Source: Prochlorococcus sp. AG-363-P19 (GTDB lineage Bacteria > Cyanobacteriota > Cyanobacteriia > PCC-6307 > Cyanobiaceae). From it: a stretch of 64,000 nt of DNA. Made by a program: the position numbers and the translations under genes. The first letter of the stretch is position 1. Each line of letters opens with the position of its first letter. The DNA is taken from NCBI GenBank assembly GCA_003280055.1, contig QCGG01000001.1, positions 62,001 through 126,000 of the forward strand, given 5' to 3'. The notes under the pieces were generated by a model, which ran no database searches, had not been told where the DNA came from, and saw nothing but the letters and a program-made list of their open reading frames with translations. This document shows, one piece after another, positions 29,342-59,748 of the stretch.

Positions 29342-29522
29342 TCAGAATTTGAGCTGGATTGGTTGAACGAGTTTGAGTTATAAACCTGAAGATAGCGGAA
29401 GGTTAGAGGTTGTTAGCGCAGATGACCTTCTTGGACAGGAGTTTTACTTAAGTCTTAAGGTCAGTAGCTTTACCGGCCACCTCGGCTGGCTCGTTGGGTG
29501 CCTTAGGAATAAGTTCTCTTTC

Positions 29523-30701: not shown

Positions 30702-30710
30702 ATATTTAAC

Positions 30711-32372
30711 ATGAGTGAATACAAATCTCCAAATTTTAATAATCCTGAGCCAGAGGAAGATGATGGAATGACTCTACAAGAAGTCATTCACTTCTTTCTA
30801 AGGAATAGAATTTTACTAGGAATAATTACTTCTTTGTCTGCAGTTTTTGGTGCAATTTATGCGTTTAGACTTCCTCCAAAGTGGGAAGGAAGCTTTCAGA
30901 TAGTTGTTGCGGCTAAGCAGGAAAATCCAATGATGTCTACTGCCTCTTCCTTTATCAATCAAGCAGCATTACTTAATAGCGGCCTTCTTCGTGGGATGTC
31001 TGGTGGTGAATCAACAGAATTGCAAACAGAAATCAAAATTCTTGAAAGCCCATCTGTTTTAAGACCTGTATATGAGTTTGCTAGTGAACAGAAAAAATTG
31101 ACAGAAGAAAATAATTCACCAATACCCGAATTTAAGTCCTGGTTTTCTCAAAGTGTAAGTATTGACTTAATACGTAGAACAAAAGTTCTTACTATCTCTT
31201 ATAAAGATTCTGATAAGAAATTAATCCTTCCAGTTTTAAATAAGATGAAGGATATTTATCAGCAGTATTCAAACCTTGAACGCCTTTCTGCTTTGTCTAG
31301 AGGAATTGAGTATGCAAGCACCCAGGTGCAAATTTTTAAAGAGAGATCAGAAAAGTCCAATCGTTTGCTTGATTCATATGAGATTCGCCATGGAATAAAA
31401 TCTGATAGCAGGATGTCTGGTAGTGGTTTTACTAATCCTAATTTTCTACAAATAGATAACCCTGTAAGCCCGAGTAGTTTTATGACTACTACTTCTTCTT
31501 CTGCTGCGGATGGTTCTCGCTCAGGTGATCCTATATCTGACTTGTCTAGAATTAATAGAGAAATTCTCCGTCGTAAAAGGATTTTTACTGACGAAGATCC
31601 TAGTATGAAAGCTTTAATAAGAGAAAGAGATGCTGTAAGGACTTACGTAGAACTTAGTGCTGGTGGCACACTAGCTTCTCCTTCTGGACAGCCTAGCAAT
31701 AAAGAAGAAGCACAGAAAATTATGGTTAAGTATAAGGAACTTTTCCGGAAAGCTGAGAGAGAAAGTAAGACTCTTGATTCTTTGGAAAGCATGCTTTTGA
31801 ACCTGCAACTTTCAAAAGCTCGTTCAACTGCCCCTTGGAAATTAATTTCAGATCCAACTCTTGTTTCTGATTCTCCTGTTGAACCACATAAAAAAATGAT
31901 TGTTCTAATAGCCTTATCAACTGGTCTGGTATTAGGGACAATTATTGTTTTAATTAATGAGCTTATTAAAGGTAAGGTGTTTTTATTACGAGCTTTTGTA
32001 AAAGCACTTCCTTGTCCACTTCTACAAGAATTGCCTTTGCTAGACCCTTCATGTTGGCGAGATACTCTCGCGGTAATTGTTAATGGACCCATTGCTAAGG
32101 CTGGCAATGGACCGATTGCTTTAATACCTTTAGGGGGTATAAACCCATCACATCTTAAAGTCCTGTCGAGTGATTTGAAGGAATTGATTGGTAATAGAGA
32201 ATTCTTTATAACGCCTGATGTTAATGCAACAAATAACTGCTCCTCAAAAATCCTAGTTGCATCACCTGGGTTGATAACTTATGACAAATTGAACAGGATT
32301 TCGAAACAACTTGCTCTTCAGGAAAGTACAACAACTGGTTGGTTATGGATTGATCCATACGCAAAACCCTAG
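30711..32372 (+). CDS. Wzz/Wzc-like chain-length protein lacking a kinase domain
   Basis: 553 residues. TM1 near residues 33-52 (NRILLGIITSLSAVFGAIYA) and TM2 near 394-413 (MIVLIALSTGLVLGTIIVLI) bracket a long periplasmic region with coiled-coil stretches, the Wzz layout. A cytoplasmic tail of about 130 residues follows without Walker A, so the BY-kinase of Wzc is absent. It should set export or polymer length in partnership with the Wza-like protein nine bases upstream. The tail resembles no domain I can name. Confidence 0.82.
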   Translation: MSEYKSPNFNNPEPEEDDGMTLQEVIHFFLRNRILLGIITSLSAVFGAIYAFRLPPKWEGSFQIVVAAKQENPMMSTASSFINQAALLNSGLLRGMSGGESTELQTEIKILESPSVLRPVYEFASEQKKLTEENNSPIPEFKSWFSQSVSIDLIRRTKVLTISYKDSDKKLILPVLNKMKDIYQQYSNLERLSALSRGIEYASTQVQIFKERSEKSNRLLDSYEIRHGIKSDSRMSGSGFTNPNFLQIDNPVSPSSFMTTTSSSAADGSRSGDPISDLSRINREILRRKRIFTDEDPSMKALIRERDAVRTYVELSAGGTLASPSGQPSNKEEAQKIMVKYKELFRKAERESKTLDSLESMLLNLQLSKARSTAPWKLISDPTLVSDSPVEPHKKMIVLIALSTGLVLGTIIVLINELIKGKVFLLRAFVKALPCPLLQELPLLDPSCWRDTLAVIVNGPIAKAGNGPIALIPLGGINPSHLKVLSSDLKELIGNREFFITPDVNATNNCSSKILVASPGLITYDKLNRISKQLALQESTTTGWLWIDPYAKP

Positions 32373-32492
32373 CCATATGAAGTATATTTTTTTATTCGAA
32401 CTCTCTTCTACAAATAGCATTTTTTCTATCTTGTTCCCTCGACTTTTTCTAAGATTTAAAACATACACTTATGCTTTTCCAATACTCTTATA

Positions 32493-34550
32493 GTGAATAG
32501 GTTTACTTTACTATTTAGAGTTCTGAGCGGGACTTTATTTATTCAGCTTTCTCAGATATCCGCTGCCAATGCAGAGTTGATCTGGGATGACCTTCAAATA
32601 GGACAAGATTCTCAGAACTTAAATATTTCTAAGGTTAAGGATCAAAATGTATTGAATGTCAGATCACCTAAGCCTAAAAAAAACGATTTAGTTTGGGAGG
32701 CAAAAGAAAGTAAAAATAATATTATTAAATCTCGAAAACCCATTACTTGGGAAATTATCCCAGATTATCCAACTCTTAAAAAAGATTCTACAGTTTGGGA
32801 GAATGTACCTGAAGGCGATCCGTCTTATTTAGATAGGCAGATCAATGATCAATTTGGTGGCCTAGAGATACCTAATAATTTTGAGGAAGCCCAAGATGTT
32901 TTGAATAAACTTCAACCACGTGCTGAAGACTATCCATTGCCATTAACCTTGGGGCTTATGGTGCCAACAGCTAACCAAGTTACTGAATCAGAAATAAAAT
33001 TAAGTGCATACCAAATTTCACCGTTTGATGCCGGTGAGGCTGGTGGAACTGGAAATCAGAATTATGCAATCCAGTTTGATGCAGGTATCACAGATAGATT
33101 GCAATTTTCCGGGTTCGTTTCACAAGCAGATGACCCACTTTTTGCAAAAATAGATAGCCTTAGCTCTCAACCTGGAAACTTCTGGGAGATTTATGGTGCA
33201 CAGATTAAATATAGACTTGCAAGTGATCCTTATCGATTGTATGAAGATTCTCCAGGACGATACTGGAACCTTTCTTTTGCAGCATCTTTGGAAGGATGGA
33301 ATGTAGGAAGTGGAGGTTGTGACTCTGCCTTGTGCAAAGGAAAGGATGATACTAGTCCCAATATATTTAATGATTCTGGACAAAGAGTTTACACCAAGAA
33401 TTTAATTGGCTCTGTCGCTTTACCTTTAACATGGAACACTTCTAAAACATCGCAAATTAGTATTTCACCAGGAGCAAGTTTCTTACCTGAGCTTCAAGGT
33501 TCTGACCAGGGTGGTTCAGGTGAGTTTTATGGAAATAATTTCTGGGTCTCCGGTGGGGCTCTTTGGCGTCCTATTCCAGAAATAGATTTATTTACATCTG
33601 CATTGTTATCTTTTGGACCAGGAAATAATAGCTTTGATCAAAATTTAACTTTTGAGAGGGTACCTATATTTACTGGAGGGTTAGTTTGGAACTTGAATCC
33701 CAGAATTTCACTTGAAGGATCATTGACTAATGGTTGGGGCGCTACACCAGCAACCTCCTTACTCGCCTTGCCCTCGTCTAATCAGATAGGTTATTCAACT
33801 AAATTCATTTACAACTCAGGTGCTATGGATACACCTCAAATACCTCTGACTATGCGACAGGACTCTCTTTCCACTGGAGGACTTACTGTAAATACTGCGC
33901 TTGTTCCTCCAGATGGGACTAATCATTTATGGGGTAATTTTGATAGTTCAGGAAATATCTTTGCATCCTACTCTTACTCAATATCTAATATCTTTCAATT
34001 GGATCTTTATAGAGCTGGTCTTTTTAACCAAGTTGATGTTGTTGGCGGTGAACCTTCTTCAAGTTTGGATAGATATTACACAACTGATGATGGACTTCAT
34101 TGGCGAGTTGGCGGTAAAGCTGTTGCATTAAGTCCTCTTAGGGGCGCTCCAATTTGGACTTCTGGAAGAATAAGTCTTGGAAGAAATAACGATGCTAAAA
34201 GTTATCAAGGCTATATTTTTGCAGAATCAATTAATACTTACGAATACAACTCATGGTTGGCTTTGAATGTAAACCCCAAGATAGCTCTTAGTGGAATTAG
34301 TGATCCGTGGGGCGTAGGCTTTAGCGCGAATATACAAATAGGACATAGCTTCCAGTTGATACCAGAGATAAATTTTGTTGGTTCACATACAGAGGCTACA
34401 AATATGACCATTGCTTTAAGGTGGTTAGCAAAACCAGAATTTACCTATGTAGATTTTTACTTAAGCAATGCTGCTGGGTTGATGGATATAGGACAGTTAA
34501 TGCGAACTGATGATCCTAGGATTGGGACAAAAGTAAGCTTGATTTTCTAA
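32493..34550 (+). CDS. Secreted outer-membrane beta-barrel protein of the polysaccharide locus
   Basis: 685 residues. Signal peptide with a likely AxA cut near residues 24-27 (SAANAE). Then four short Trp segments, LIWDDL (W31), LVWEAK (W68), ITWEII (W86) and TVWENV (W102). From about 150 onward alternating aromatic/polar strands such as YAIQFDAGITDRLQFSGFVS and a terminal LIF predict a barrel. It could be a Wzi-like capsule anchor or export porin; homology is not certain. GTG start at 32493. It overlaps the convergent P450 end by four bases. Confidence 0.7.
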   Translation: MNRFTLLFRVLSGTLFIQLSQISAANAELIWDDLQIGQDSQNLNISKVKDQNVLNVRSPKPKKNDLVWEAKESKNNIIKSRKPITWEIIPDYPTLKKDSTVWENVPEGDPSYLDRQINDQFGGLEIPNNFEEAQDVLNKLQPRAEDYPLPLTLGLMVPTANQVTESEIKLSAYQISPFDAGEAGGTGNQNYAIQFDAGITDRLQFSGFVSQADDPLFAKIDSLSSQPGNFWEIYGAQIKYRLASDPYRLYEDSPGRYWNLSFAASLEGWNVGSGGCDSALCKGKDDTSPNIFNDSGQRVYTKNLIGSVALPLTWNTSKTSQISISPGASFLPELQGSDQGGSGEFYGNNFWVSGGALWRPIPEIDLFTSALLSFGPGNNSFDQNLTFERVPIFTGGLVWNLNPRISLEGSLTNGWGATPATSLLALPSSNQIGYSTKFIYNSGAMDTPQIPLTMRQDSLSTGGLTVNTALVPPDGTNHLWGNFDSSGNIFASYSYSISNIFQLDLYRAGLFNQVDVVGGEPSSSLDRYYTTDDGLHWRVGGKAVALSPLRGAPIWTSGRISLGRNNDAKSYQGYIFAESINTYEYNSWLALNVNPKIALSGISDPWGVGFSANIQIGHSFQLIPEINFVGSHTEATNMTIALRWLAKPEFTYVDFYLSNAAGLMDIGQLMRTDDPRIGTKVSLIF

Positions 34551-35977
34551 TCTGTTCCTTCAATTATCTCCAGCCATAACTTTATACCATTTGAAGATCG
34601 TAATGTTAGTCGGCCTGTTAAATCAGGATTTTGCCCTGTGACTGGTATGAGTTTGAAATTTCTGATGAGTTCAGCAAGTACAAGGACAGCTTCCTGTTGG
34701 GCAAAAGCAGCTCCAGGACATTTTCTTGGTCCTAAGCCAAAGGGGAGGAAGGCGTCCCTTACCCAATTGGATTCTTGTGATTTTATAAAACGTTCGGGTT
34801 TGAAAACCTGAGGTTCTTCCCAATGGTTTTCATGACGATGAATAACCCAGGGTGAAAGGGTAATAAGTGCCCCCATTGGACAACGCTTTTCTTTTCCTGA
34901 AACTAAGAAACTAGTAGAAGTTTTTATTCTTTCACGTATAAAGAAACTCACTGGTGGGTATAGCCTTAATGTTTCATTGAATATTGCAAAGCAGTAATTT
35001 AGTCTTCTTATTTCCTTTTGCTCTAATGCTTTTTTGACGGGTTTGTTAGCTGTTACGGAGCTGATTTCTTCACGAAGCTTACATTGAACTTGAGGGTATA
35101 GAGCAAGTAACCATGTTGCTATTCCTAATGAGCTTGCCGAAGTCTCGTGCCCTGCTAGAAAAAGGAAACAAATTTGATCAACAAGTTCATTTTCCGAAAA
35201 CCTTTTATTGGTTTCCTGGTCAATACCCATTATTAAACAATCAAGAAGATCTTTGGGACTGGAATAATTTGGAGGTTCTTTAGCATGATTGTCTAGTCTT
35301 TCTTTAATTGCTAAATGTATCCAGTCTCGAATCACTTTTGCATCAGTATTCAGGCTTTTTTGTATTATTCTTTTTGGTAGTTTTAAGAATCTCATTACAA
35401 GCGCTCTACTCGCTTTCCTTTGGTATCGAGCAAATGCTTTAAAAATCTTCTTTGCTTCGCCTTCATTCAATGGCCGGCTAAGTATTGTTCTCATAATTAC
35501 ATCAGCTGTAACCAGTGTCATTTCTTGATCAATATCTATCGGATAAAAGGCTTCTTTTGTCTTTAGCCTATTTATTAAATCCCCCGTTGCGGAGGCCATA
35601 GATGGGAAAACATTGTTTAACTTTGCTGCCTGAAATGCTTGGTCTATTAGGCGCCTTTGCCAGGCCCACTCTTCACCATTTACTGAAAAAATTGCTCTAC
35701 CTATCAAGGGTTCCAGAATCCATAATGTATAAGGATGTTTTGGAAAGTTCTCTACATCTTCAATAAGAATCTTTCTGATTAACTCAGGGTCGTTTATAAG
35801 GAATACTGGTAATCCGAGCAGATTTAGTTCACCAAAGGGTATTCGAAAATCCCATTCATTTAGAAGTCCTAGCCATGTTTTCCATCCTCGTGCGAGTCTA
35901 TGGAAAATATTGGGTGTATAAGGCAATGGTTTTGGCCATGGAGGTTCATTTCTTGATGGTTTGGCTATCTCATTCAT
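34547..35977 (-). CDS. Cytochrome P450
   Basis: 476 residues, full length and intact. The I-helix oxygen-binding motif AGHETS is at 275-280, the K-helix ExxR is E335-R338 (NETLRLYPP), and the haem Cys is C420 in FGLGPRKCPGAAFA. It resembles CYP110/CYP4-like cyanobacterial monooxygenases that hydroxylate fatty acids or terpenoids. The start overlaps the alpha/beta hydrolase stop by four bases. Position on the polyketide-synthase side suggests it may tailor that product, but that link is inferred. Confidence 0.92.
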   Translation of the reverse strand: MNEIAKPSRNEPPWPKPLPYTPNIFHRLARGWKTWLGLLNEWDFRIPFGELNLLGLPVFLINDPELIRKILIEDVENFPKHPYTLWILEPLIGRAIFSVNGEEWAWQRRLIDQAFQAAKLNNVFPSMASATGDLINRLKTKEAFYPIDIDQEMTLVTADVIMRTILSRPLNEGEAKKIFKAFARYQRKASRALVMRFLKLPKRIIQKSLNTDAKVIRDWIHLAIKERLDNHAKEPPNYSSPKDLLDCLIMGIDQETNKRFSENELVDQICFLFLAGHETSASSLGIATWLLALYPQVQCKLREEISSVTANKPVKKALEQKEIRRLNYCFAIFNETLRLYPPVSFFIRERIKTSTSFLVSGKEKRCPMGALITLSPWVIHRHENHWEEPQVFKPERFIKSQESNWVRDAFLPFGLGPRKCPGAAFAQQEAVLVLAELIRNFKLIPVTGQNPDLTGRLTLRSSNGIKLWLEIIEGTD

Positions 35978-37110
35978 TGGATACTCTTGTTAACTGAATT
36001 GGTAAGTAAGCCAGGCAAATCGACGCTTGAACAATGATTACGTAGGTAATCAAAATGTATCTTGAATTGATTAAGGAGAATGTTTTTATTTGGATGGTTT
36101 TTTGCTGGTGACTTTAGGGAGATTATTTCCATTTTGGGATAGGATTGTCCCTTTGGCAAAGTTATCCCACAGCTTGTAAATGGGTTGACTCCAGCGAAAC
36201 AAAGTAGGTCTTGTTCTGAGGTGACATCACGCCATGGTAATCTGGGCTCATCTGCCAGTAGTTTTAGGTCCTCCCTGAAAGGTTTTGCCTCCGGATAGAT
36301 CGATAGGTTTGTAAGATTTTGCCCAAGGGTGAGTAATTCAATTCTAGCAAGTATTGCCTTTGCCTTCTCATTTCTTTTTAATTGAGCTGCTAACATTGCA
36401 AGTACAAAGCTACCGCTGCTATGCCCAATGATTAATATACGTTGGGCAGGATTATCTTTTTCTATTTTAATTAATTCGTCTGCTAGTTTAGAGATTCTTT
36501 TTCGCAAGTCCTTTTCCTTTGCTTGCCCTAGGCGATGTGTGAATAGGATTGACCTTGTCAACCAAATTAACCCGATCTTTTCAGCGAGTTTCCATGCTGA
36601 AAATAGAGTTAAAAGTCCTATGCCTAAGGCTATGAATTGATAGCCTGCTTCTAGATCCAATCTATGCATCATTTCTAGTAATATCAATGCAGTAGTCAAT
36701 GAGCAAGTAAGTGCTAAACAACCAAAAAGCAATGGATATGCTCCGCACAAAGCTACTCCAGGACATAGCCTTGCAACTTTAAGAAACTTGCCTTTAAAAA
36801 AATAAAATGATGCATATGATAAGACTTGCCTAAGAATCTCTAGAGGGTGTCTTGGCCAGTTTGCACGAGCAATATCGTCCCAATGAAGGAAACTCAGTTC
36901 TGAAGAGGAGGACTTTCCAATTTTTGAGTTGTTTCGAGTCTCTTCTGCTTTTCTCAACGGCCATCGAGTTATTAGATCATTGGTTATTCTTTTTCCAGTA
37001 CGATAGCCTCGGACTTTGAGCTCTGCTTGAAAGAGAGCTAAATAGTGGGCTGCACCTCTTGGATCAAATCCACTCACGAAATAAGTTCTCGAACAAGGGT
37101 TAGCAGTCAC
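35974..37110 (-). CDS. Membrane alpha/beta hydrolase
   Basis: 378 residues. The N-terminal part (VSGFDPRGAAHYLALFQAEL) begins like a lipase/esterase fold, is interrupted by two or three membrane helices (about 120-195, including CGAYPLLFGCLALTCSL), and continues with the nucleophile elbow ILIIGHSSGSFVLAML, where the middle Ser would be catalytic. The substrate is unknown. It is coupled to the P450 by a four-base overlap. In this context acyl-ester or thioester hydrolysis or acyl transfer is plausible. I do not recognise a named family. Confidence 0.72.
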   Translation of the reverse strand: MTANPCSRTYFVSGFDPRGAAHYLALFQAELKVRGYRTGKRITNDLITRWPLRKAEETRNNSKIGKSSSSELSFLHWDDIARANWPRHPLEILRQVLSYASFYFFKGKFLKVARLCPGVALCGAYPLLFGCLALTCSLTTALILLEMMHRLDLEAGYQFIALGIGLLTLFSAWKLAEKIGLIWLTRSILFTHRLGQAKEKDLRKRISKLADELIKIEKDNPAQRILIIGHSSGSFVLAMLAAQLKRNEKAKAILARIELLTLGQNLTNLSIYPEAKPFREDLKLLADEPRLPWRDVTSEQDLLCFAGVNPFTSCGITLPKGQSYPKMEIISLKSPAKNHPNKNILLNQFKIHFDYLRNHCSSVDLPGLLTNSVNKSIQ

Positions 37111-37178
37111 AGGCTTAACTCTCTGCTCAGATCCATCCCGCTGTTAATCATGGTTAGTACTCAATTACTGAAAAAGTG

Positions 37179-37745
37179 ATGTTGAATGGAAAAAAAAGTA
37201 GTGCCCTTTTTCTAGGACTGATATTAGGTCTCTCTTCGCCAATTGGTTTGATTGCAGGCGAAAGACAAGAACCACAGTTAACTAGGCTCAAAAGAGTTAC
37301 AACCTCTACGATTACAGTCCCTGTAGAACTGAATAGAGCATGGGATGTCCTGACTAGTTATGAAAGCACTGCCATTCAGATGCCTGATATTAAAAAGGCA
37401 AAGGTTTTAGTTCGAGATGGTAATTTACTTAAAGTATCTCAAACTTATCAAGCACCCTACACTTTTGGTCTGGAAATCTCTGCATTGCTTCAGATAAAGG
37501 AGATCCCAAAAAACAAAATTGAATATCAGCTATTAAAAGGGGAACTGATTCGTTCTCTTAGAGGGCAATGGCAATTAACTCCTGTTCCTGGAGGAACACA
37601 AATAAGTCATAGCATTGAAATCGACCCTGAACTTCCAGAAGTCTTCAAGCCAGTTTTCCGTGAACTTAGTGAGTCAAATTTAAATCAATCAATGAAGCTA
37701 CTTTATAGCTTAATGGTTAATCATTCAGAATCTGAACCCCCTTAG
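37179..37745 (+). CDS. Secreted SRPBCC/START-like protein
   Basis: 188 residues from the ATG at 37179 (GTG at 37176 is one codon upstream). Signal peptide ALFLGLILGLSSPIGLIAG. The core TITVPVELNRAWDVLTSYESTAIQMP is a typical SRPBCC (polyketide cyclase/dehydrase, Bet v 1-like) fold start, which binds hydrophobic ligands. Export suggests a lipid or pigment carrier in the lumen or periplasm. The only plus-strand gene inside the polyketide region; its 3' end overlaps the convergent GT2 gene by 29 bases. Confidence 0.75.
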   Translation: MLNGKKSSALFLGLILGLSSPIGLIAGERQEPQLTRLKRVTTSTITVPVELNRAWDVLTSYESTAIQMPDIKKAKVLVRDGNLLKVSQTYQAPYTFGLEISALLQIKEIPKNKIEYQLLKGELIRSLRGQWQLTPVPGGTQISHSIEIDPELPEVFKPVFRELSESNLNQSMKLLYSLMVNHSESEPP

Positions 37746-38934
37746 GTTTTAGAGTTATTTGATAGTTAATTCCTCGCCACTCTACTTTTTTCGCGAGAAG
37801 AGCAGAAAAAGTAGACAAGCCATTTAAAATTTGCCCTGGGAAAAGAGCCAAGGCAAAATTCTTTATAGAAGTTGTTTTCTTATTTAAAGCTAATTTTTCT
37901 ATCCAAGTCAATAAGAAAAGGCATGCTAATTCATAGGCTAATAAGGAAGACAATGTATTAAAGAGTATTCCTAAACAAATTAAAGTTGTTGTGCTTATTC
38001 CATGTATTAATATTAATGGCCAAGCTGGATGATGAAGACGAACTGTAAGTACCTGCCTAGTCAGCCAATTTGACAAATCACTTATTTTGATACCATCACT
38101 TTTGTCAATTATTAAAAGTTCAGGAATAAATAGGTATTTCATTTTTAATTGCTTGAGTGGTTTATTTAGGCATGTATCTTCACATAAAGAGTTGTTCATA
38201 AGCTTTATCCAGAGGCCTGAATCTACAACTTCTCTTCGAACTGCAAGTGAACCACCCCAGGGGATTTTGAACAGTGTCATTAATACTAGAGCCCCTGCAT
38301 TCCACACAGTTCGAATATAACCTTCTATTGTATTTTGACTTGGTAAATACCATCTGTTTCCAGAAACGGCACCAATACCTTTTTGGCAACAACCAAGTAC
38401 AAGAAGCTTTAGCCAATTTTTGGGTACTACTGCATCAGCATCGACTAGTGCAATGACTTTTGAGTCAGGGTGAAGATTCCTTAATGCTTGATTAATAGAA
38501 GAACATTTTAGAGAGCCATTTTTTTGTCTTTTTTGAAGAGCTTGAAGGGTAATCTCTAACTTATCAGGACTACTTGTCTTATTTATGGCATATTGATTAA
38601 TTGCCTTTTCTACTATTTTCCATGAATTATCTGATCGCGAATCCACTATAATTTGTAGTCTAATTTTGCCGGGATAGTTTTGATTATAAAGAGCATTTAG
38701 CAACGGTAAAAGTGTTTCGTCTGCACCTCGTAAACACAAAATTATTTCAGCAGCAGGCCATCTTCCATTAAGCGGCTTCCCCCATTTGCTTTGTATTTCG
38801 CGAAGTTGCTTGAGTTTGATTGCAAAAGTAGCCACAAGCATTGCTTGAATAGCAATGACAAAGGGAAACATTAGTTGCAGAAAGTCCCTTATTATCAAGC
38901 TGCTACGGAACTTTTGAGAAGTGAAGAAGCCCAT
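37717..38934 (-). CDS. Membrane GT2/GT21-like glycosyltransferase
   Basis: 405 residues. An N-terminal membrane helix, then a GT-A domain with LVDADAVVPKNWLKLLV (DxD), GAVSGNRWYLP, LCEDTCLNKPLKQLK (acceptor Asp) and a late RQVLTVR that resembles the (Q/R)xxRW box, followed by C-terminal membrane helices. This pattern is seen in ceramide-glucosyltransferase-like and HpnI-type enzymes that glycosylate lipids. The start lies 40 bases inside the polyketide synthase coding end, so translation is probably coupled. It is the closest candidate to glycosylate a released polyketide alcohol. Confidence 0.83.
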   Translation of the reverse strand: MGFFTSQKFRSSLIIRDFLQLMFPFVIAIQAMLVATFAIKLKQLREIQSKWGKPLNGRWPAAEIILCLRGADETLLPLLNALYNQNYPGKIRLQIIVDSRSDNSWKIVEKAINQYAINKTSSPDKLEITLQALQKRQKNGSLKCSSINQALRNLHPDSKVIALVDADAVVPKNWLKLLVLGCCQKGIGAVSGNRWYLPSQNTIEGYIRTVWNAGALVLMTLFKIPWGGSLAVRREVVDSGLWIKLMNNSLCEDTCLNKPLKQLKMKYLFIPELLIIDKSDGIKISDLSNWLTRQVLTVRLHHPAWPLILIHGISTTTLICLGILFNTLSSLLAYELACLFLLTWIEKLALNKKTTSIKNFALALFPGQILNGLSTFSALLAKKVEWRGINYQITLKPKGVQILND

Positions 38935-41900
38935 GTTCCGATTAGATCTTCAAAGTCAGGGCAATGAATATTTTGATTTTCTAATGCGCTGAGAGTGAGG
39001 CTGCAACTTGGACGAGCTTTGACGCCGAGCGCGTTTAGCTCAGGGTATGTAAGTTGTTCTGCTCCCCAGCGTTGCTCGAAGAAAGCTCTTAGAGGATTAA
39101 GAGGATTATTTGTGTCTTCTGAGATTGCTTCAAGCCATTCCTTCATTGGTACTTGTCGTAATGGAGCTCCATCAGAAATGAGCTTTGTTAAAAGGTCATT
39201 AAGCATTAAAGGACGTGGATGTTGTAGGTGAAAACAATGACCTGTTGATTCTTTTCTCCACGCTAGAGCAGTGATTGAATCGGCAACATAATCCACAGGT
39301 ACCAGGTCCAGTTCCCATGCGAGTTGAGGGGCTTGGCCTAGCGCTAAGCATCCTTGGAGAAGTCTTTGCAGAAGATCTCCTTCATGCCAATGGCCAGTAA
39401 TGGAATGACCTCCTATTAGCGGAGGTCTATAAATACTGATTGGCAAGCCACGTTTACCCGCTTCACTCACCAAGCGCTCACTAACCCATTTTGTTTGAGA
39501 GTAGCCAATATGAATACCTTCCCAAGAACAAAGGTCGTCAGTCTCAAGGATTTCGCTATTTCTATATGCAGCTCCTTCAAAAACCGAAACGCTAGACACA
39601 TGCTCAAGTCGTATTGGGTCAGAAAGAGTGGCCAGCTTAAGAACTTCTTTGGTTCCTCCTACATTTGCAGCTGCAAGCTGCGCATAGGACGCCATTTGAC
39701 TAAGTTGTGCTCCGTTATGAAGAATCCCACTTATTTCAGAAGATAAAGTATTAAATTGTTCGTTTTCCAACCCAAATCTAGGTAGAGACAAATCACCAAG
39801 AACTGGTTCTATTCTTTTCTCCCAAGCATGTTGCCAAAGTCCATAGCGGTGTAAATTTTCTTTGATTCTTTCTAAAGCATGTTGCTTAGTTTTTGCTCTA
39901 ACAAGACAACGGATTTTAAGTTCAGGCCAATGGTTTAATTGACCAGCTAAAAGGTATGCACCCAAAAAGCCAGATGCTCCAGTTAACAATATAGAATTAC
40001 CCGGAGATAGATCATTTTTTGAAACTATATTAGACCATTCAATGTCGAGCTTTGCTTCCTGCTCTAGGTTCAATATGCCTGAATTTTGTTGACCACCTTC
40101 GGGTGTTAATTGTTTAATACCTAGTGTGGCGAGTGCATCCAGAGTTGGATCATCTGCAAGAGCCTCTAGGTCCAGTCTGATTCCAAGCTCTGCTTGTACT
40201 ACAGCTGCATATTCAACTGCCATTAAGGAATCCAGACCTAGGTTAAATAGTGATGAACTGGAATCTATTGAAGATGCCTCAAGTGAATCTTCAGATTCAT
40301 ATTCTGCTGCCATGACTCTTGCTAATCTTTCTCGCAACTCATTCACTACAGTTGTTTGACGTTCAGTGTTAGGGAGATCTTTTAACTTCTGCCAAAGACG
40401 TTCTGAAGGTGATGGTCCAATTTTTTCTAATAAGTCATTAAACCAATCTTTTTGTCGCAGCAATGCCTGAGATGCAAGAAGTTGCCAGTCCGCATCGATT
40501 ACAGAAACCACACCACCTTGTCCTCTTTTTAGGAGCCGGTTTAGTGTCTCAAGGGCATCTTTGGAGTCAAGCATCTTTATTCCTATTCTTTCGAAACGAC
40601 TTTCCAGTCCCGCTGCCATACCCTTACCTGCCCATGGCCCCCATTGAATAGACAGTCGAACAGGAGATGTTGTGCTGCCTTTGCAATAGCCTTCCATGGC
40701 GCCATTGGCTGCTGCATAAGCGGATTGACCGGGAGAACCAAGTAGAGCTGCAATTGATGAAAATCCAACTAAAAAATCTAAATCAAATTCTTTGACAAGG
40801 GTGTTTTCAAATAATTTCCAGCCCAAAACCTTTGGAGCCAAAGTTTCTTCTACACAGCCTTCACTAATAGTGGAAAAGAGGCCATCTTGGTTTACTCCGG
40901 CAGCATGAAAAACTCCTCGCAATGGTTTCTCGCTGGGGAGGGTTTGAATTGCCTTTTTAATCTTTGTATTTACTTCGCTATCTTTATCAAGATAGAGGTC
41001 ACAAGAAAGTGTTATAAAGTTGATTTCTTTCTCTTTAAGGTCACTTAGAACTTTTTTTGCATCTTTGCTTAAGTTTTCGAATGAACGGCCAACTAAAATA
41101 AAAGAATCTGCTCCCTGAGATACAAGCCAGGGAATTAATTTGAGTCCTATACCTCCTAAGGCACCAGTGATTAAATATGTGGCTTTACAATGAATAGTTA
41201 GTGGATCAGATTTTATTGGTTGTGTTATGACAACTTTGCCTATGTGTTTTGCTTGGGCCATATGCTTAAAAGCCTCTCTGAATTCATTTATCGACCAAGT
41301 TTTCAGTGGGATATTTCTTAATGAACCATTAGATATCTCTTTACTTAGTTTCAGAAGAAGTTCCCTTATTTTGTGAGGATCAGCTGTTGCAACTTCGAGT
41401 AAATCAAAGGGTAAATAAGAAGAATCTGGACGTTTCTCTTTTGCCTTGTCTATGCTCCATATTTCAATCTTGCCAAGCTCAACAAACCTGCCGCCTTTTT
41501 TTAGAGCCCGAAAGCTTTCATCAACCCAAGCCCCCTTGAGACTATTGAGAACTACATCTACTCCGTTCCCGTCTGTCAATTTCAATACCTCGTCGGCAAA
41601 ATCCAGAGTTCTGGAATCAAAGATTCCTTCCACACCCTGTTGCTTTAAAAGACTTTGTTTCTCAGCCGAGGCTGTTGCAAACACTCTTGCCCCAGCACGT
41701 TTAGCAATTTGTATTGCGGCCTGGCCAACTCCGCCTGCACCTGCATGAATCAGAACTGTCTCATTAGGGGTTATTTTTGCAAGACTTTCTAGCCCATAAG
41801 CAGCTGTGAGGTAGGCAGTCGAAAAGGTTGCCCCTTCTTCTGCACTCATTTTGTTTGGTAATGGTATGCAAAGCTCTTCTCTGGCAACAACGTGACTGGC

Positions 41901-44900
41901 AAGACTCCCTATTGTTAAAGCTGCGATAACTTTTTTGCCTAGAAGTTCCTTAGATGAACCAGGTCCTACATTTATGACCTTGCCGACAGCTTCTCCTCCA
42001 AATGGCAGCCTAGTTTGATCATCAATCCCAAGTGAAATTGCATGATCTTTAAGTAATCCAAGTGAGTTAAGAACATCTCTGAAGTTGAGACCAGTCGCTT
42101 CTACAGAAATTTCCAATTCTCCAGGCAATAGTTTGCTTGCTGGCATTGCCTTTCGATGCAATCCTTCTATGCGGCCAGTCCCATCGGTTCGTATTTGGAA
42201 TCTTTCGCTTTCTAAGATTTCGAGATGTGGTGTATTTAAATTACCATTTATGTAGGAAATTTCAGAGTGCTTTTCACTGGCAATAAAGATATCTTGCCAA
42301 TCTTGATTTTTTGGATGTTCAGAAATCTTATTGGAAATGAGCAATGTTGTTAATTTCCATTCTGGTCGTTCCAGGAGCAAAGTACGTTGAAAAGCTGTTA
42401 AACAATTAGTTGTAGGATTGTCACCTTCCAAAATTAGAAAAATATGACCTTTATAATTATTTGATAAACTCTTTAGGGTTTTGGAGACTTCTTTTAAAGT
42501 CGATATAGGCTCACTTGCTTTTGAGCTAGGCCAGATAATTAGAGATTGGTCAGTTTGAGGAATGGTGCTCCCAAATGGAAGACTATTAATAGACATATTC
42601 TCAGAAATAGCCCAGGTTTCTAACTCTTTAATGCGATCTTCTTCTGCAGTAATTATATTAACTTCTTTGTTTTCAAAGTTAAATTTGGTATTTTCTTGAT
42701 TCTTTATACTTGACCATTTTACATGAAATAATTCCGGTCCACTTTTAGAGGGTTCTTTGATTGGAAATAGAAGTTCTAGAATGGATCTAGTAAGCCTTTT
42801 TAGCTTTAAACCAACGATTCCGCCAATGTATTGACCATCTTTCTCAAGTTTTAAATCGGCTAATAGAGTTGAGCTTTGCGTATCTGGTGGATGTAATAAG
42901 ATATTGCAGCTGAATTGATCAGGTAAAGGCCAATTGAGTATATGAATATTTTCTATGCCAACAGGTAAGAACAATTGACTATTCGCTTTATTTAGATTGA
43001 CGCATGCTGCTACAGCTTGAAAACAGCCATCGAGTAGGCATCTATCAGGTGAATTAATTGGTCGTTCTATTTCAACCCAGGCTTGGTTATTTTTGGAACG
43101 CAATCTTTTTATTGGCTTATAGAATTCTCCATAATTAAGACCAATAGTTGCTAGAGAATTGTAAAATTTATTTGGATTAATAGACTTCAAATCAGAGAAT
43201 AAATTAGGCTCCTTATTTTGAAAGTCATCGCTTGAGAGCTTTTTAATAGTATTATTATCAAAGCGGACAAGCCCATGCTTTATCCATTCGCTCTTAATAT
43301 TACTTTGGCTATAAAAACTCATTTCTCCATCGTCTAGTATAGCTTGAAGATTGCTGAAACCATTGTCAATTTTCAAAGGAGTATCAAGTTCAAAGCCTGA
43401 AAGATTCGCTTCCCAATTGTTTTCTACTTTTAGATCTAATGCCAATCCAATATATCCAGCTGCTGGAAAGACTATCCAATCACGTATGACATGGTCTTCT
43501 AAATCTTGTGTGCTTTTGGGGATTAATTCGGCTTCAAAATATTTCGATTTTCCAGGCAATTGGAGCTGTTTGAATTTTAATAAACTATTAGATATTGAGG
43601 CTTCTAGTTTAACTTTGCCTAGATGGTCTAGCCAAAGGCTTGACTTGGTCTTTTCCTCTTCTGCCTGGGTCCACCAGTAACGTTGTTTAAGAAATGGATG
43701 ACCAGGAATATTTATAAGATTGTAGGGGAAAGGCTGATGAAAAGCATTCCAATTTATCTTCTCGCCTTTACCAATAGCATGTGCTAGCTCTTCAAGCTTT
43801 TCACGTCCTTCTTTCCCAGACAAGCCAAGATTAACCTGCTCAATTTCTTGTTTTGAAATGGACTTTCCTGAAGTTGTTTCTCCTTCCCACGCTGGCATCT
43901 CTTCTCTTTTAAGCTTAGAAATTAATTCATCACGGTCAGAACAAATAATAATGTATCTATGCGGAAATAAACTTCTACTTAAGTGAGTACTTGCGGCAAC
44001 ATCATTAATACTTAATAGAGGGTCATTTTTAAGAAGAAGTAGATACTTTTCTCTAAGAATGTCGAGTGCTTTTGCTGTTCTAGCTGAAAGGCAAAGTAGG
44101 TATAAAGGGGGTTCATTTATAGCGGGTATAACTTTATCTTGTTTTTTGCTTGATCTTGGGGCCTCGCTTAATACTGCATGTGCATTAGTACCTCCAAATC
44201 CAAATGAGCTGACTCCAGCAATCAGCTTTCTTTTAGGATCTGGGAACGAAGATAGCTCAGTTTGAACTTCTAAACCAAGCTTTTTAAAATCTATAGAAGG
44301 ATTAGGAGTATGAAAATGGAGATTTGGAGCTATTTGTTGCTCTTTTAAGCAAAGAGCAGTTTTTATAAGGCCGGTTATTCCTGCTGCAGTTTCACCATGT
44401 CCAAGATTTGTTTTTACTGAACCAATGCGACAAGGCCGATCGTTGGCTCTCCCTTCTCTAAGTACGCTCCCTAATGCGCGTAACTCAATGGGGTCGCCTT
44501 GACGTGTACCTGTTCCATGAGCCTCGACGTATTGTGTTTGGCTGGGATCTAAACCTGCACTCTCGTAAGCTTTCTTGACGCAATTAGCTTGGGAACGTTG
44601 ACTAGGTGCTGCCAGGCCTTGGCTCCTTCCGTCTGAGTTGACAGCAGTTCCGTTGATCACAGCATGGATCTTGTCACCATCCTTTAGAGCAGCTTTGAGA
44701 GGTTTTAGCAGGACTACTCCGGCACCTTCAGATCGAACATATCCATTTGCTTCAGCATCAAAGCTTTTGCAACGACCCTCTGGGGAAAGTAAACCAGCTT
44801 TGCAAAAGCTCATTTGTATACCTGGATGAATTAGAGCTTGAACTCCACCAGCTATTGCAAGATCTGATTCCCCTTTTCGAAGACTTTCACAAGCCAAATG

Positions 44901-45467
44901 AACTGCAACTAAAGATGAGGAACAAGCTGTGTCGACAGTGAAACTTGGACCTTTTAAATCTAAAAAATATGAAAGACGATTCGCAGCAATACAACCGGTA
45001 TTTCCTGGAAGGATAAATGGTTCATTGTCTGGGGTTAGGTAGTCTTCACTTGAAGCCCATAGAAGAGAACTGTAGTCGGCACTTGAAATGCCTACAAAAA
45101 CACCTACGGATCTACCGCGAATATCTTCTATTGGTAGGCCAGCATTCTCAATAGACCGCCAGGAAACTTGTAGCAACATGCGTTGCTGTGGATCCATGCA
45201 GATTGCTTCTCTTGGTGTGATCCCAAAAAAGCTTGGGTCAAACAAATCAATCTCTTCGATAAATCCACCCTTTCGTACATGTTGGGTGAGAGGATTTTTA
45301 GGATCTGAATTGAAGTGAGCGTCTAAATCCCATCGATCAGAAGGGATGTTTGTTATTGCATCTTTGCCATCACGAATGAACTCCCAGAATTGCTCTGGAG
45401 ATTGGATGCCACCTGGCAGGTGGCATCCAATGCCGATTATTGCGATGGAGTCCTGCAAAGGCATCAA
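38895..45467 (-). CDS. Type I polyketide synthase, AT-less, with terminal reductase
   Basis: 2190 residues. Domains: ketosynthase 1-430 (Cys182 in VDTACSSSL, His317 EAHGTGT, His357); KS linker 450-530; no acyltransferase, but post-AT-like linker PGHPFLKQRYWW at 588-599; dehydratase about 610-895 (His659, Asp813, with Asp663 in the usual Gly place of HxxxGxxxxP); enoyl reductase about 1085-1415 (HAGAGGVGQAA 1241); ketoreductase about 1425-1660 (TGALGGIG 1434, Tyr1584); acyl carrier about 1705-1785 (LGLDSLM, Ser1747); thioester reductase 1820-2185 (TGASGFLG 1829, Tyr1989/Lys1993). A fully reducing, probably iterative enzyme releasing aldehyde or alcohol. Malonyl units must be loaded in trans. 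Confidence 0.95.
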   Translation of the reverse strand: MMPLQDSIAIIGIGCHLPGGIQSPEQFWEFIRDGKDAITNIPSDRWDLDAHFNSDPKNPLTQHVRKGGFIEEIDLFDPSFFGITPREAICMDPQQRMLLQVSWRSIENAGLPIEDIRGRSVGVFVGISSADYSSLLWASSEDYLTPDNEPFILPGNTGCIAANRLSYFLDLKGPSFTVDTACSSSLVAVHLACESLRKGESDLAIAGGVQALIHPGIQMSFCKAGLLSPEGRCKSFDAEANGYVRSEGAGVVLLKPLKAALKDGDKIHAVINGTAVNSDGRSQGLAAPSQRSQANCVKKAYESAGLDPSQTQYVEAHGTGTRQGDPIELRALGSVLREGRANDRPCRIGSVKTNLGHGETAAGITGLIKTALCLKEQQIAPNLHFHTPNPSIDFKKLGLEVQTELSSFPDPKRKLIAGVSSFGFGGTNAHAVLSEAPRSSKKQDKVIPAINEPPLYLLCLSARTAKALDILREKYLLLLKNDPLLSINDVAASTHLSRSLFPHRYIIICSDRDELISKLKREEMPAWEGETTSGKSISKQEIEQVNLGLSGKEGREKLEELAHAIGKGEKINWNAFHQPFPYNLINIPGHPFLKQRYWWTQAEEEKTKSSLWLDHLGKVKLEASISNSLLKFKQLQLPGKSKYFEAELIPKSTQDLEDHVIRDWIVFPAAGYIGLALDLKVENNWEANLSGFELDTPLKIDNGFSNLQAILDDGEMSFYSQSNIKSEWIKHGLVRFDNNTIKKLSSDDFQNKEPNLFSDLKSINPNKFYNSLATIGLNYGEFYKPIKRLRSKNNQAWVEIERPINSPDRCLLDGCFQAVAACVNLNKANSQLFLPVGIENIHILNWPLPDQFSCNILLHPPDTQSSTLLADLKLEKDGQYIGGIVGLKLKRLTRSILELLFPIKEPSKSGPELFHVKWSSIKNQENTKFNFENKEVNIITAEEDRIKELETWAISENMSINSLPFGSTIPQTDQSLIIWPSSKASEPISTLKEVSKTLKSLSNNYKGHIFLILEGDNPTTNCLTAFQRTLLLERPEWKLTTLLISNKISEHPKNQDWQDIFIASEKHSEISYINGNLNTPHLEILESERFQIRTDGTGRIEGLHRKAMPASKLLPGELEISVEATGLNFRDVLNSLGLLKDHAISLGIDDQTRLPFGGEAVGKVINVGPGSSKELLGKKVIAALTIGSLASHVVAREELCIPLPNKMSAEEGATFSTAYLTAAYGLESLAKITPNETVLIHAGAGGVGQAAIQIAKRAGARVFATASAEKQSLLKQQGVEGIFDSRTLDFADEVLKLTDGNGVDVVLNSLKGAWVDESFRALKKGGRFVELGKIEIWSIDKAKEKRPDSSYLPFDLLEVATADPHKIRELLLKLSKEISNGSLRNIPLKTWSINEFREAFKHMAQAKHIGKVVITQPIKSDPLTIHCKATYLITGALGGIGLKLIPWLVSQGADSFILVGRSFENLSKDAKKVLSDLKEKEINFITLSCDLYLDKDSEVNTKIKKAIQTLPSEKPLRGVFHAAGVNQDGLFSTISEGCVEETLAPKVLGWKLFENTLVKEFDLDFLVGFSSIAALLGSPGQSAYAAANGAMEGYCKGSTTSPVRLSIQWGPWAGKGMAAGLESRFERIGIKMLDSKDALETLNRLLKRGQGGVVSVIDADWQLLASQALLRQKDWFNDLLEKIGPSPSERLWQKLKDLPNTERQTTVVNELRERLARVMAAEYESEDSLEASSIDSSSSLFNLGLDSLMAVEYAAVVQAELGIRLDLEALADDPTLDALATLGIKQLTPEGGQQNSGILNLEQEAKLDIEWSNIVSKNDLSPGNSILLTGASGFLGAYLLAGQLNHWPELKIRCLVRAKTKQHALERIKENLHRYGLWQHAWEKRIEPVLGDLSLPRFGLENEQFNTLSSEISGILHNGAQLSQMASYAQLAAANVGGTKEVLKLATLSDPIRLEHVSSVSVFEGAAYRNSEILETDDLCSWEGIHIGYSQTKWVSERLVSEAGKRGLPISIYRPPLIGGHSITGHWHEGDLLQRLLQGCLALGQAPQLAWELDLVPVDYVADSITALAWRKESTGHCFHLQHPRPLMLNDLLTKLISDGAPLRQVPMKEWLEAISEDTNNPLNPLRAFFEQRWGAEQLTYPELNALGVKARPSCSLTLSALENQNIHCPDFEDLIGTWASSLLKSSVAA

Positions 45468-46585
45468 GCCAACTCCATTATTAACTTTCTAATGCCATCA
45501 AGATTTCCTTTGAGACGATTGTAGTTATATGTAGCTTGAATAAGCGTATGCTTTCTGGGGTCTTCCAGCCAATTTGAAATTAGTTTCCTTAGATCTTCCG
45601 GATTCTTGATAGATATGTCTATATCTCTAGCAGAGAAGTAATACCTTGCTAGTAATTCCTGAGGCATAGTGCTCCCAAAACCATTAAAGATAAGCACACA
45701 TCCTGAAGATATAGCTTCAGTAGCCGTCCTTGCACCCGGTCTAGCAACCATGGCCCAAGCGTTTTTGTAGAGATTTGCCATTTGTTCTGGACTTTGAAAA
45801 CCAATTGCTTCCACTGATATTTCTGGGTGGGAATTTTTCCAAGTATTAAGTTGCTCTATAGCGCTTGCTCGCCTCCCACATAAGGCAACTATGCGAATTC
45901 GACCAGCAAGGGGAAGAAGATTATTAAGCAAATCAACATGATTATTCGAGCCATTAGCTCCACTGCCAAGAACAATTAGAGGGAGCGCATTCAAATCATT
46001 TTCTTTATTTGTGGAATTTGCCAAGGCCTTTTCAAAAGTGGGATCAAAAAGAGGACCTAATACTTCTATCTTGCTAACAGGAAAACCCCTTTTGATGACT
46101 TCGTTCTTGACCTCTGAGGTTAATGCCCAGAATTTGTCAGTCTTCAGGGAAACCCAATTTCTACTAAAACCGAAACCTCCATCTAATTCAGTACAACAAG
46201 TGATACATCTCAATGATTTACCAAGAATCCTTTTGGCAAGATCAAAGTGTCCTCGGTTGATATGTGGGTGGGTTGAAATAATGACTTCTGGGCGGAATCT
46301 TTTGAGCAGGCGTATGAAATAGTTTCTTCCAAGCAAAACTGTGCCAGGTTTGACGAGGTCTTCAAATTCAACTAAACGCCAGTAAATTTTATGAAGCCAT
46401 GGCCAGTGTTTTTGGATCCAGTTGTAGAGGTTTACGCTTGTGCGCATGACGATGCTTGCTTTTTCTAGTAAATGCTCTACGGAAGCTGACCCATCAGGAT
46501 CCCAATGAGATAACCAGTTTTTTATTGCATAGGCGGCTGCATCATGGGCAGTACCACCGCTTGAGGTAAGAATTAGAACTCGCAT
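45464..46585 (-). CDS. MGDG-synthase-like GT28 glycosyltransferase
   Basis: 373 residues. The N-terminus VLILTSSGGTAHDAAAYAIKNW and RPEVIISTHPHINRGHFDLAK match the MGDG synthase N-domain; the C-terminal GT28 donor site shows PLIVLGSGANGSNN, ALCGRR and MVARPGARTATEAISSGCVLI. Such enzymes transfer galactose or glucose to diacylglycerol at membranes. The stop overlaps the polyketide synthase start by four bases and its own start is 17 bases after the MFS gene, so all three form one operon. Predicted acceptor: a lipid, perhaps the polyketide product. Confidence 0.88.
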   Translation of the reverse strand: MRVLILTSSGGTAHDAAAYAIKNWLSHWDPDGSASVEHLLEKASIVMRTSVNLYNWIQKHWPWLHKIYWRLVEFEDLVKPGTVLLGRNYFIRLLKRFRPEVIISTHPHINRGHFDLAKRILGKSLRCITCCTELDGGFGFSRNWVSLKTDKFWALTSEVKNEVIKRGFPVSKIEVLGPLFDPTFEKALANSTNKENDLNALPLIVLGSGANGSNNHVDLLNNLLPLAGRIRIVALCGRRASAIEQLNTWKNSHPEISVEAIGFQSPEQMANLYKNAWAMVARPGARTATEAISSGCVLIFNGFGSTMPQELLARYYFSARDIDISIKNPEDLRKLISNWLEDPRKHTLIQATYNYNRLKGNLDGIRKLIMELA

Positions 46586-46602
46586 AAATTAATGATTTAC
46601 CT

Positions 46603-47901
46603 CTAAAAAGTTGAACGCAAGTTCTTTGCTTGGCTGATTCTTGAAAGAAAGAGTACCCAGCCAATTGCCCCAAGTGCGACGGCTATAGCTCTTCCTTCTT
46701 CAGTGCCCAATGAAGATTTTATCCAGGAAGGTAAGCCAGGCCAAATTAGGGCAGGTTGAATTAGTTGATCTACCGCTAATGAGACAGAAATAAAAGCAAT
46801 TAATCTGGCTGACCATTCAAATGCATATCGCACTGCAAAAAAACGAGGAAGCTCTTCAGGAGGTGCTATCTGACTCCAGATTTGCTGAATTGAAGACATG
46901 ACAATAGGCAAGCCAGAACTGAAAATTAAAACACCTCCAAACCATATGAGAGGACGGGAGTCAAATGTTTTTAATCCTGCCCCCATAAGGATTAGCGCTT
47001 GTATAGAAATCATGTTGGGCCATATTCTTTGCCAGTAGTTCGCTGCTTTTCGCTGCCACGCAAGTAGGCCTAGGGAGTATCCCAGCATGGCCGCGAGAAT
47101 GACGAGCGCCATCCTTTGAGTTCCATATGCCACCGCAACCCAGGCCGGGAAAAGTATTTCAGTCGCAGCATAAGAAAAGGCTATAAAAGTGCTCATTGTC
47201 AGAGCCACTTGACCTAGAGGACTTGAGCTCCATATTTTTTGAAGTGTGGCCCAATTTTTTGTGAGTTGAATTCCCTTCCATTCGGATGCGTTTTTGGAGG
47301 GATGATTGAGTTGATTTGGCCAGGGGGCGGCGAGCACGCAAATAAGTGCAATTAAAAAACTACAAGCATCTATACCCAGAACCCCTTCTAAGCCAATTAA
47401 GCCAGCTAGCCAACTACCTAGAAAGGGGGCTACTGCTAAAACCAGGGTGTCAGTGCTGGCAAAGAGTCCATTCGCCTTGACAAGAGATTCTTTATTGAGA
47501 ATCAGAGTAGGAATAAGACTTGAAAAACTAAGAATCAATGTTGCTTCAGCCATTGCGGCCAGTCCTTGTAGAAGGAGAACAGGCAATAAGTGAGGTATCC
47601 CTTTCCCTTGCAAAAGGAGCATTGAAAAAGCAAGGGTGCAGAATGCCCCAATGCCGTTTGAGATGAGCATTACTCGTCTTCTTGGCCAAGCTGCAACTTG
47701 ATTTCCGATTAGAGGTAAAACAATGATTCTTGCTATTTGAACTGACAGAGCCACTAAAGCGAAGTCTGCCAAATGTTGAGTCTTTGCAAAAAACCAAAGA
47801 CCTATTCCATATAGGGTTGTTTGCGTACCAAGATTGGAAATAAGTTGCCCTAGCCAAAGCCAAAGGAAAGTTTTTTTTGCTTTTGTTTCTGTAAAGGGCA
47901 T
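46603..47901 (-). CDS. MFS transporter
   Basis: 432 residues with about twelve hydrophobic helices. The first loop shows GNQVAAWPRRRVMLISNG, the loop 2-3 Arg-rich motif of the major facilitator superfamily; the N-terminus LWLGQLISNLGTQTTLYGIGLWF is typical of the enterobactin-exporter-like drug/siderophore efflux branch (MFS_3). First gene of the minus-strand polyketide operon. Export of a glycosylated product is a reasonable guess, not shown. Confidence 0.86.
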   Translation of the reverse strand: MPFTETKAKKTFLWLWLGQLISNLGTQTTLYGIGLWFFAKTQHLADFALVALSVQIARIIVLPLIGNQVAAWPRRRVMLISNGIGAFCTLAFSMLLLQGKGIPHLLPVLLLQGLAAMAEATLILSFSSLIPTLILNKESLVKANGLFASTDTLVLAVAPFLGSWLAGLIGLEGVLGIDACSFLIALICVLAAPWPNQLNHPSKNASEWKGIQLTKNWATLQKIWSSSPLGQVALTMSTFIAFSYAATEILFPAWVAVAYGTQRMALVILAAMLGYSLGLLAWQRKAANYWQRIWPNMISIQALILMGAGLKTFDSRPLIWFGGVLIFSSGLPIVMSSIQQIWSQIAPPEELPRFFAVRYAFEWSARLIAFISVSLAVDQLIQPALIWPGLPSWIKSSLGTEEGRAIAVALGAIGWVLFLSRISQAKNLRSTF

Positions 47902-56866: not shown

Positions 56867-57415
<549 letters not shown>

Positions 57416-57441
57416 TTTACTTAATTGAGTTCTTTCACTAA

Positions 57442-57948
<507 letters not shown>

Positions 57949-57963
57949 ACATTAGTAAGTTTT

Positions 57964-57981
57964 CAAGATAGATTGATCTTG
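57964..57981 (+). terminator. Hairpin downstream of cpeA
   Basis: CAAGAT (57964-57969) and ATCTTG (57976-57981) form a perfect 6-bp stem with a 6-base loop; an alternative pairing joins TTTTCAA and TTGAAAA around it. No strong T run follows, so it may be an mRNA end stabiliser or partial terminator between the abundant cpeBA message and the lyase gene. Confidence 0.4.
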
Positions 57982-58044
57982 TCTTTGAAAATACAAACCT
58001 AATTATTTCGTTGAATACTTTTTTACTTTAGCCTTTTTAATTTT

Positions 58045-58647: not shown

Positions 58648-58703
58648 TCGAATGCTGATTTGAATTGATTAAGCGATGAATTTTGAATCACAATTTAGAA
58701 ATT

Positions 58704-59573: not shown

Positions 59574-59748
59574 AGGAATTAAGAGGCTTGGAGAGGTTTA
59601 TTGGATTATTGATAGCTTTTAAATAATTTAACTAGAACTACTAATACCATAGGAAGTTTAAAGCATGAATTAAATTCACTGAATTTAGCAGAAGTTTTTT
59701 TTCTTCTCATAATGAAAAAATCAATTTAGCTCTAGGTATCAAAAATCC

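Follow-up and report, generated by a model that had tools for sequence, protein, structure and literature searches.

An acyltransferase-less polyketide synthase with conserved, putatively lipid-modifying neighbours in marine picocyanobacteria: a candidate FabD-dependent glycolipid locus

What could a reducing polyketide synthase (PKS) be making in a streamlined Prochlorococcus genome, and how is it fed once its own acyltransferase (AT) has gone? Picocyanobacteria dominate open-ocean photosynthesis and are reputedly poor in such secondary metabolism. The window analysed here is a stretch of 64,000 nucleotides from Prochlorococcus sp. AG-363-P19 (contig QCGG01000001.1, positions 62,001 to 126,000). 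It encodes on its minus strand a type I PKS with the domain order ketosynthase (KS), dehydratase (DH), enoylreductase (ER), ketoreductase (KR), acyl carrier protein (ACP) and thioester reductase (TR), among genes for two lipid-type glycosyltransferases (GTs), an exporter of the major facilitator superfamily (MFS), an alpha/beta-hydrolase-like protein and a cytochrome P450. The original prediction was of a glycosylated fatty alcohol or polyol. We hold with moderate confidence that this is a glycolipid locus: an iterative, fully reducing PKS, supplied with malonyl by FabD, would yield a long-chain aldehyde or alcohol for subsequent glycosylation, hydroxylation and export to the envelope. Two features had been overlooked, the absent AT and a gene for an SRPBCC protein, and with the AT missing the mechanism differs from the one first assumed.

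The PKS gene (38895..45467) encodes 2190 residues from a TTG start, or 2189 from the ATG at 45464. Its KS domain (44166..45452) and DH domain (42768..43550) are only ~110 residues apart, and the protein has no match to the AT model PF00698. In the same place, relatives from Cyanobium and freshwater Synechococcus carry an AT of ~340 residues within an otherwise identical domain order; most of these ATs have a GHSxGE motif, and a HAFH motif is seen in that of L071. ATs with HAFH usually take malonyl, which FabD also uses. The AT-less proteins have ~60 variable residues there and retain the post-AT linker ending PGHPFxRxRYWW (junction 43569..43910 in the window), the pattern expected of a clean AT excision. 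The remainder of the module is present: DH with its His and DGxFQ motifs, ER (41223..42194; PF00107/PF13602, quinone_pig3), KR (40629..41183; PF08659, 2.2e-41) with S-Y-N, and ACP (40125..40283; PF00550) with GLDSL. The reductive release domain at the end (38913..39992), already recognized in the original prediction, scores 295.5 bits with TIGR01746 against a cut-off of 213. The KS Cys/His/His is intact in all 17 aligned AT-less copies, and the DH, KR, ACP and TR motifs are kept in all of them except one truncated by a contig end; full-length AT-less orthologs are 50-72% identical to the PKS of the window. A two-gene arrangement is seen in loci L040-L047 and L052, where a KS-AT-DH-ER-KR-ACP protein is accompanied by an AT-less KS-KR-ACP-TR protein; the latter would release a chain still bearing a 3-hydroxy group.

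Has the PKS survived this excision as a working enzyme? A tree of the ER-KR-ACP region (39 rows) unites the 17 AT-less proteins in a single clade (SH-aLRT 100) that lies within the AT-bearing proteins and adjoins a freshwater Synechococcus group, and a KS tree (41 rows) recovers an AT-less clade of 18 with support of 98. Both are quick searches without bootstraps, with long branches for L051 and L063. The trees argue that the AT was lost once, by a single excision, in the ancestor of the marine Prochlorococcus and Synechococcus versions. A decaying relic that makes nothing would fit the missing AT and the degraded state of the cluster in some Synechococcus, but one ancient loss is common to 17-18 copies, the frames are full-length, and the ratio of nonsynonymous to synonymous substitutions (dN/dS) of the PKS is 0.14-0.16 between close marine Synechococcus. 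Because the catalytic motifs are intact and dN/dS is ~0.15, we reject the relic explanation as highly improbable and regard the AT-less PKS as functional.

Where, then, would its malonyl come from? The simplest reading is that the module still elongates, and in that case malonyl has to be supplied from outside the PKS. No stand-alone dedicated AT is found in the cluster. The window's genome has a single AT-domain gene, which scores as FabD above its equivalog cut-off and sits elsewhere, between FabH-like and PlsC-like genes; the genome also has a phosphopantetheinyl transferase-like gene of Sfp length. A single AT-domain match is likewise found in 15 of 16 other AT-less genomes, whereas both AT-bearing controls have two. 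The housekeeping FabD is the likely enzyme loading malonyl onto the PKS ACP, which would depend on it because the PKS's own AT was excised. In two other systems, AT-less PKS modules have been shown to be loaded by FabD (PMC12828459, PMC13096860). Alternatively, the PKS might not elongate repeatedly: it would take a single acyl-ACP made by fatty acid synthesis, perhaps add one unit from malonyl-ACP, and serve mainly as a reductase providing the GTs with a fatty aldehyde or alcohol. Both the missing AT and the TR score above cut-off suit such a role, but the KS, KR, DH and ER motifs, needless for a pure reductase, are under purifying selection, and we consider it unlikely. Repeated, FabD-fed elongation is the scheme we favour.

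Do the neighbouring genes belong to the same system? Their co-occurrence with the synthase in related genomes was the test that the original prediction had set itself, and it held among the sampled Cyanobiaceae. In this sample of 400 genomes the PKS, counted by strong matches, is found in about 48. The gene for the GT28-type glycosyltransferase is found in 43 genomes and accompanies the PKS in 40 of them (Fisher p 2e-43). The three others are relic loci: in L111 an intact GT28 gene is followed by a PKS of which only the first ~150 residues are left, and L112 and L113 hold GT28 fragments and no PKS. The SRPBCC gene is found in 41 genomes, and 39 of these also have the PKS (p 6e-43), while one of the exceptions lies at a contig end; by this distribution we count it as part of the system. 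Since the genomes are related, these p-values overstate independence; the pattern spans ~15 genera. The gene set is found again in more than 20 species, far beyond chance, and is conserved in both AT-less and AT-bearing relatives: the homologs of Cyanobium usitatum str. Tous and Synechococcus sp. 8F6 have the same gene set and domain order and keep the AT in cis. The complete set GT28-PKS-GT2-hydrolase-P450-MFS occurs in 13 of the 16 fetched AT-less loci, the other three being two cut by contig ends and L064. The MFS gene is adjacent in most homologous clusters, and the MFS/GT28 order is swapped in three Synechococcus loci. For the closest pairs, dN/dS of the other cluster genes ranges from 0.07 to 0.28. 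When L065 is compared with L066, both marine Synechococcus, divergence is far greater in MFS and hydrolase than in the PKS, which suggests gene replacement or exchange within the cluster.

Could the linked genes nevertheless serve separate products, with the two GTs making diacylglycerol glycolipids or a polysaccharide primer and the PKS, P450 and hydrolase an unglycosylated metabolite? The GT relatives do use diacylglycerol or ceramide, and the locus lies within a surface-polysaccharide region. Against this, GT28 is almost never retained without the PKS and decays upon PKS loss, and the GT2 reading frame overlaps that of the PKS. We regard two separate products as improbable and one shared glycolipid pathway as the better account.

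No match outside the family was listed in an order-level search of 299 genomes, and a query with the PKS protein for relatives among genome contigs returned three pattern matches and no relatives; the GT28 alignment succeeded. Two Verrucomicrobia metagenome-assembled genomes (MAGs; L107 and L108) encode a GT28 homolog of 35% identity immediately downstream of a ketosynthase-like stretch, a hint that KS and GT28 were already paired at an earlier stage, beyond the cyanobacteria.

The gene layout of the window bears out the six minus-strand genes of the original prediction by open reading frame coordinates and by Pfam and NCBIfam matches; its picture of an uninterrupted run and of one of the spacings needs amending. 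The MFS gene (46603..47901) is separated from the GT28 gene (45464..46585) by 17 bases, the PKS overlaps the GT2 gene (37717..38934) by 40, and the hydrolase gene (35974..37110) overlaps the P450 gene (34547..35977) by 4, all as described. The 4-base overlap of GT28 and PKS is found only if the PKS begins at its TTG, and from the adjacent ATG it is a single base (TGATG). The run is not continuous: the 606 bases between GT2 and hydrolase contain most of the SRPBCC gene (37176..37745), which is on the plus strand.

What the accessory proteins might do is indicated mostly by their families. GT28 belongs with the monogalactosyldiacylglycerol (MGDG) synthase/UgtP family, relatives of processive diacylglycerol glucosyltransferases: PF06925 (MGDG_synth) matches above cut-off (1.6e-10), and its profile finds the solved processive diacylglycerol beta-glucosyltransferase 9wde (9e-24) and MGDG synthase 4wyi (3e-15). 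The GT2, a membrane protein of ceramide-glucosyltransferase/HpnI-like type with hydrophobic segments near both ends, matches Glycos_transf_2 (PF00535, 1.6e-8), the HpnI model at a level below cut-off (1.1e-15; 57 bits against 310) and, over part of its length, the solved ceramide glucosyltransferase 26qf (1e-5). For both GTs, the nearest relatives of known structure act on lipid acceptors. Enzymes of the MGDG-synthase and ceramide-glucosyltransferase types glycosylate lipid hydroxyls, and TR domains release aldehydes or alcohols. The P450 is clear (PF00067, 5.8e-72; heme motif FGLGPRKCPG), with the CYP110 fatty-acid hydroxylases as a candidate family for it; a second P450 occurs in this small genome at G000:C10:45568-46716. 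The MFS protein (PF07690, 1.6e-19; TIGR00900, H+ antiporter-like) is a putative inner-membrane exporter. The SRPBCC/START-like protein (Polyketide_cyc, PF03364, 6e-10) has an N-terminal hydrophobic segment, with a hydropathy peak at residues 10-28, and is a putative periplasmic lipid carrier. For the membrane protein called an alpha/beta hydrolase, the label is tentative: its GHSSG motif is invariant, it has a hydrophobic helical insert, and the Foldseek neighbours of its AlphaFold model are nearly all alpha/beta hydrolases, but at marginal values (best E 2e-3, query TM-scores <0.3), with no Pfam or NCBIfam match, no named family and nothing significant in a PDB sequence search with its profile.

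Put together, these parts suggest a pathway. The single-module PKS would work iteratively on a presumed acyl starter, with KR, DH and ER fully reducing each extension, and the TR domain would free the chain, presumably a long one, as an aldehyde or alcohol. One or more sugars would come from GT28 and the membrane GT2, and the P450, perhaps together with the hydrolase, would tailor the chain. Export over the inner membrane would fall to the MFS protein, with the secreted SRPBCC protein as a possible ferry to the outer membrane. Given the TR, two lipid-type GTs, a P450 and an exporter, the glycosylated fatty alcohol or polyol of the original prediction is still the most economical product.

Several points weigh against this pathway. 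Its product, a glycosylated long-chain alcohol or polyol, is a prediction from the genes, and the GTs might instead use diacylglycerol or some other lipid. Most assignments stop at the family level and score under the NCBIfam cut-offs, which TR and FabD alone exceed. The AT-domain search of one fragmented MAG, G088, found none. The Synechococcus locus L064 is without hydrolase and P450, so these two are not indispensable, and two-gene-PKS loci are usually missing at least one of the accessory genes in their vicinity. Finally, the MFS gene diverges far faster than the PKS.

The surroundings fit an envelope product. The locus is flanked by hisS/UDP-glucose-dehydrogenase-like genes and selD, and alongside it on the plus strand (29373..34550) are envelope genes that serve as context rather than as specific members of the cluster: Poly_export/SLBB (29373-30701), Wzz-like (30711-32372) and an outer-membrane beta-barrel (32493-34550). 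The barrel was considered as a member of the system and set aside because, of the 83 genomes among the 400 that encode it, 48 are without the PKS. Further along the window, at 56867-61077, is a group of small open reading frames, some of them phycobilisome- or HEAT-repeat-like by eye.

From a PKS/glycolipid locus that is conserved and under selection in such streamlined genomes one would predict a surface lipid not yet seen, one that could bear on phage, grazer and light or nutrient responses and could serve as a biomarker. If FabD dependence is true, it ties PKS output to primary lipid metabolism. The broader proposal, that marine Prochlorococcus and Synechococcus possess an undescribed class of envelope glycolipid built from a long-chain (poly)ol by a PKS that lost its AT once and has been run by FabD since, is one we advance only tentatively. 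A weaker extension is that, if the P450 acts at an internal position of the chain, long-chain alkyl diols would result from hydrolysis. The open-ocean sources of such diols are debated.

How does the locus compare with known systems? In the original prediction the synthase was likened to HglB/HetM of heterocyst glycolipid (hgl) synthesis, a kinship shown at the level of the TR domain only. The hgl islands (HglE/C/D/B-HetM, HglT, HgdBC) also unite a reductive PKS, TR release, a glycosyltransferase and an exporter in one locus and make a long-chain sugar lipid, which for our cluster is the predicted product. These islands are related to the polyunsaturated fatty acid (PUFA)-type KS, and are recognized by the clustering of at least 7 of 19 Anabaena hgl-island genes (PMC11804610). 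Compared by Pfam only and not by the Anabaena proteins, the gene content of our cluster differs: it has a single fused KS-DH-ER-KR-ACP-TR module without AT, GTs of MGDG and ceramide type, a P450, a hydrolase, an SRPBCC protein and an MFS rather than an ABC exporter, in an organism with no heterocysts. No KS of PUFA/HglE type was found in the genome, where the sole KS matches are the cluster PKS, scoring 303 with the PUFA/Hgl-type (PfaA) model TIGR02813 against a cut-off of 1010, and a FabF-like gene. The latter (G000:C7:27869-28598, outside the window) appears split over two overlapping frames of 230 and 227 residues, probably by an assembly frameshift in an essential gene. Because the PUFA-type KS is absent, the cluster is not an hgl island, and an hgl-type system in this non-heterocystous organism is rejected at the KS as very improbable.

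Closer in distribution is CF-20 (PMC4247773, Calteau 2014), an uncharacterised family of PKSs that is widespread in picocyanobacteria of both marine and freshwater habitats, keeps its gene order, and has been passed on vertically with some losses. Compared by distribution and gene order rather than domain content, it may be, and probably is, the same cluster, although the picocyanobacterial genomes also contain another, more distant PKS family; this tempers the earlier description of the system as undescribed. The AT loss, the FabD link and the glycolipid reading were not found in that account, and neither AT loss nor FabD link of the cluster is reported in the literature searched. Literature searches on these genomes and on marine diols likewise brought up nothing of use.

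With trans-AT PKSs as a functional class, the cluster PKS shares the absence of an internal AT, without the dedicated in-cluster AT of that class. Its KS groups with those of AT-bearing picocyanobacterial PKSs, which speaks against descent from a trans-AT lineage in a tree without reference trans-AT KSs; as far as tested, the enzyme appears to be trans-AT in function and not in descent. The nearest parallels are the AT-less modules PipC (pseudotetraivprolide) and BrnF (barnesin), which likewise have no dedicated trans-AT gene and leave FabD as the sole candidate. These are modules of hybrids between nonribosomal peptide synthetase and PKS, whereas the cluster PKS is stand-alone and fully reducing and its loading by FabD is predicted only. 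Unlike them, it has AT-bearing relatives, which allow its AT loss to be assigned to a single branch. The loss is a clean natural experiment, with close relatives with and without the AT and one remaining malonyl transferase, and it lets the dependence of a former cis-AT PKS on an enzyme of primary metabolism be tested directly.

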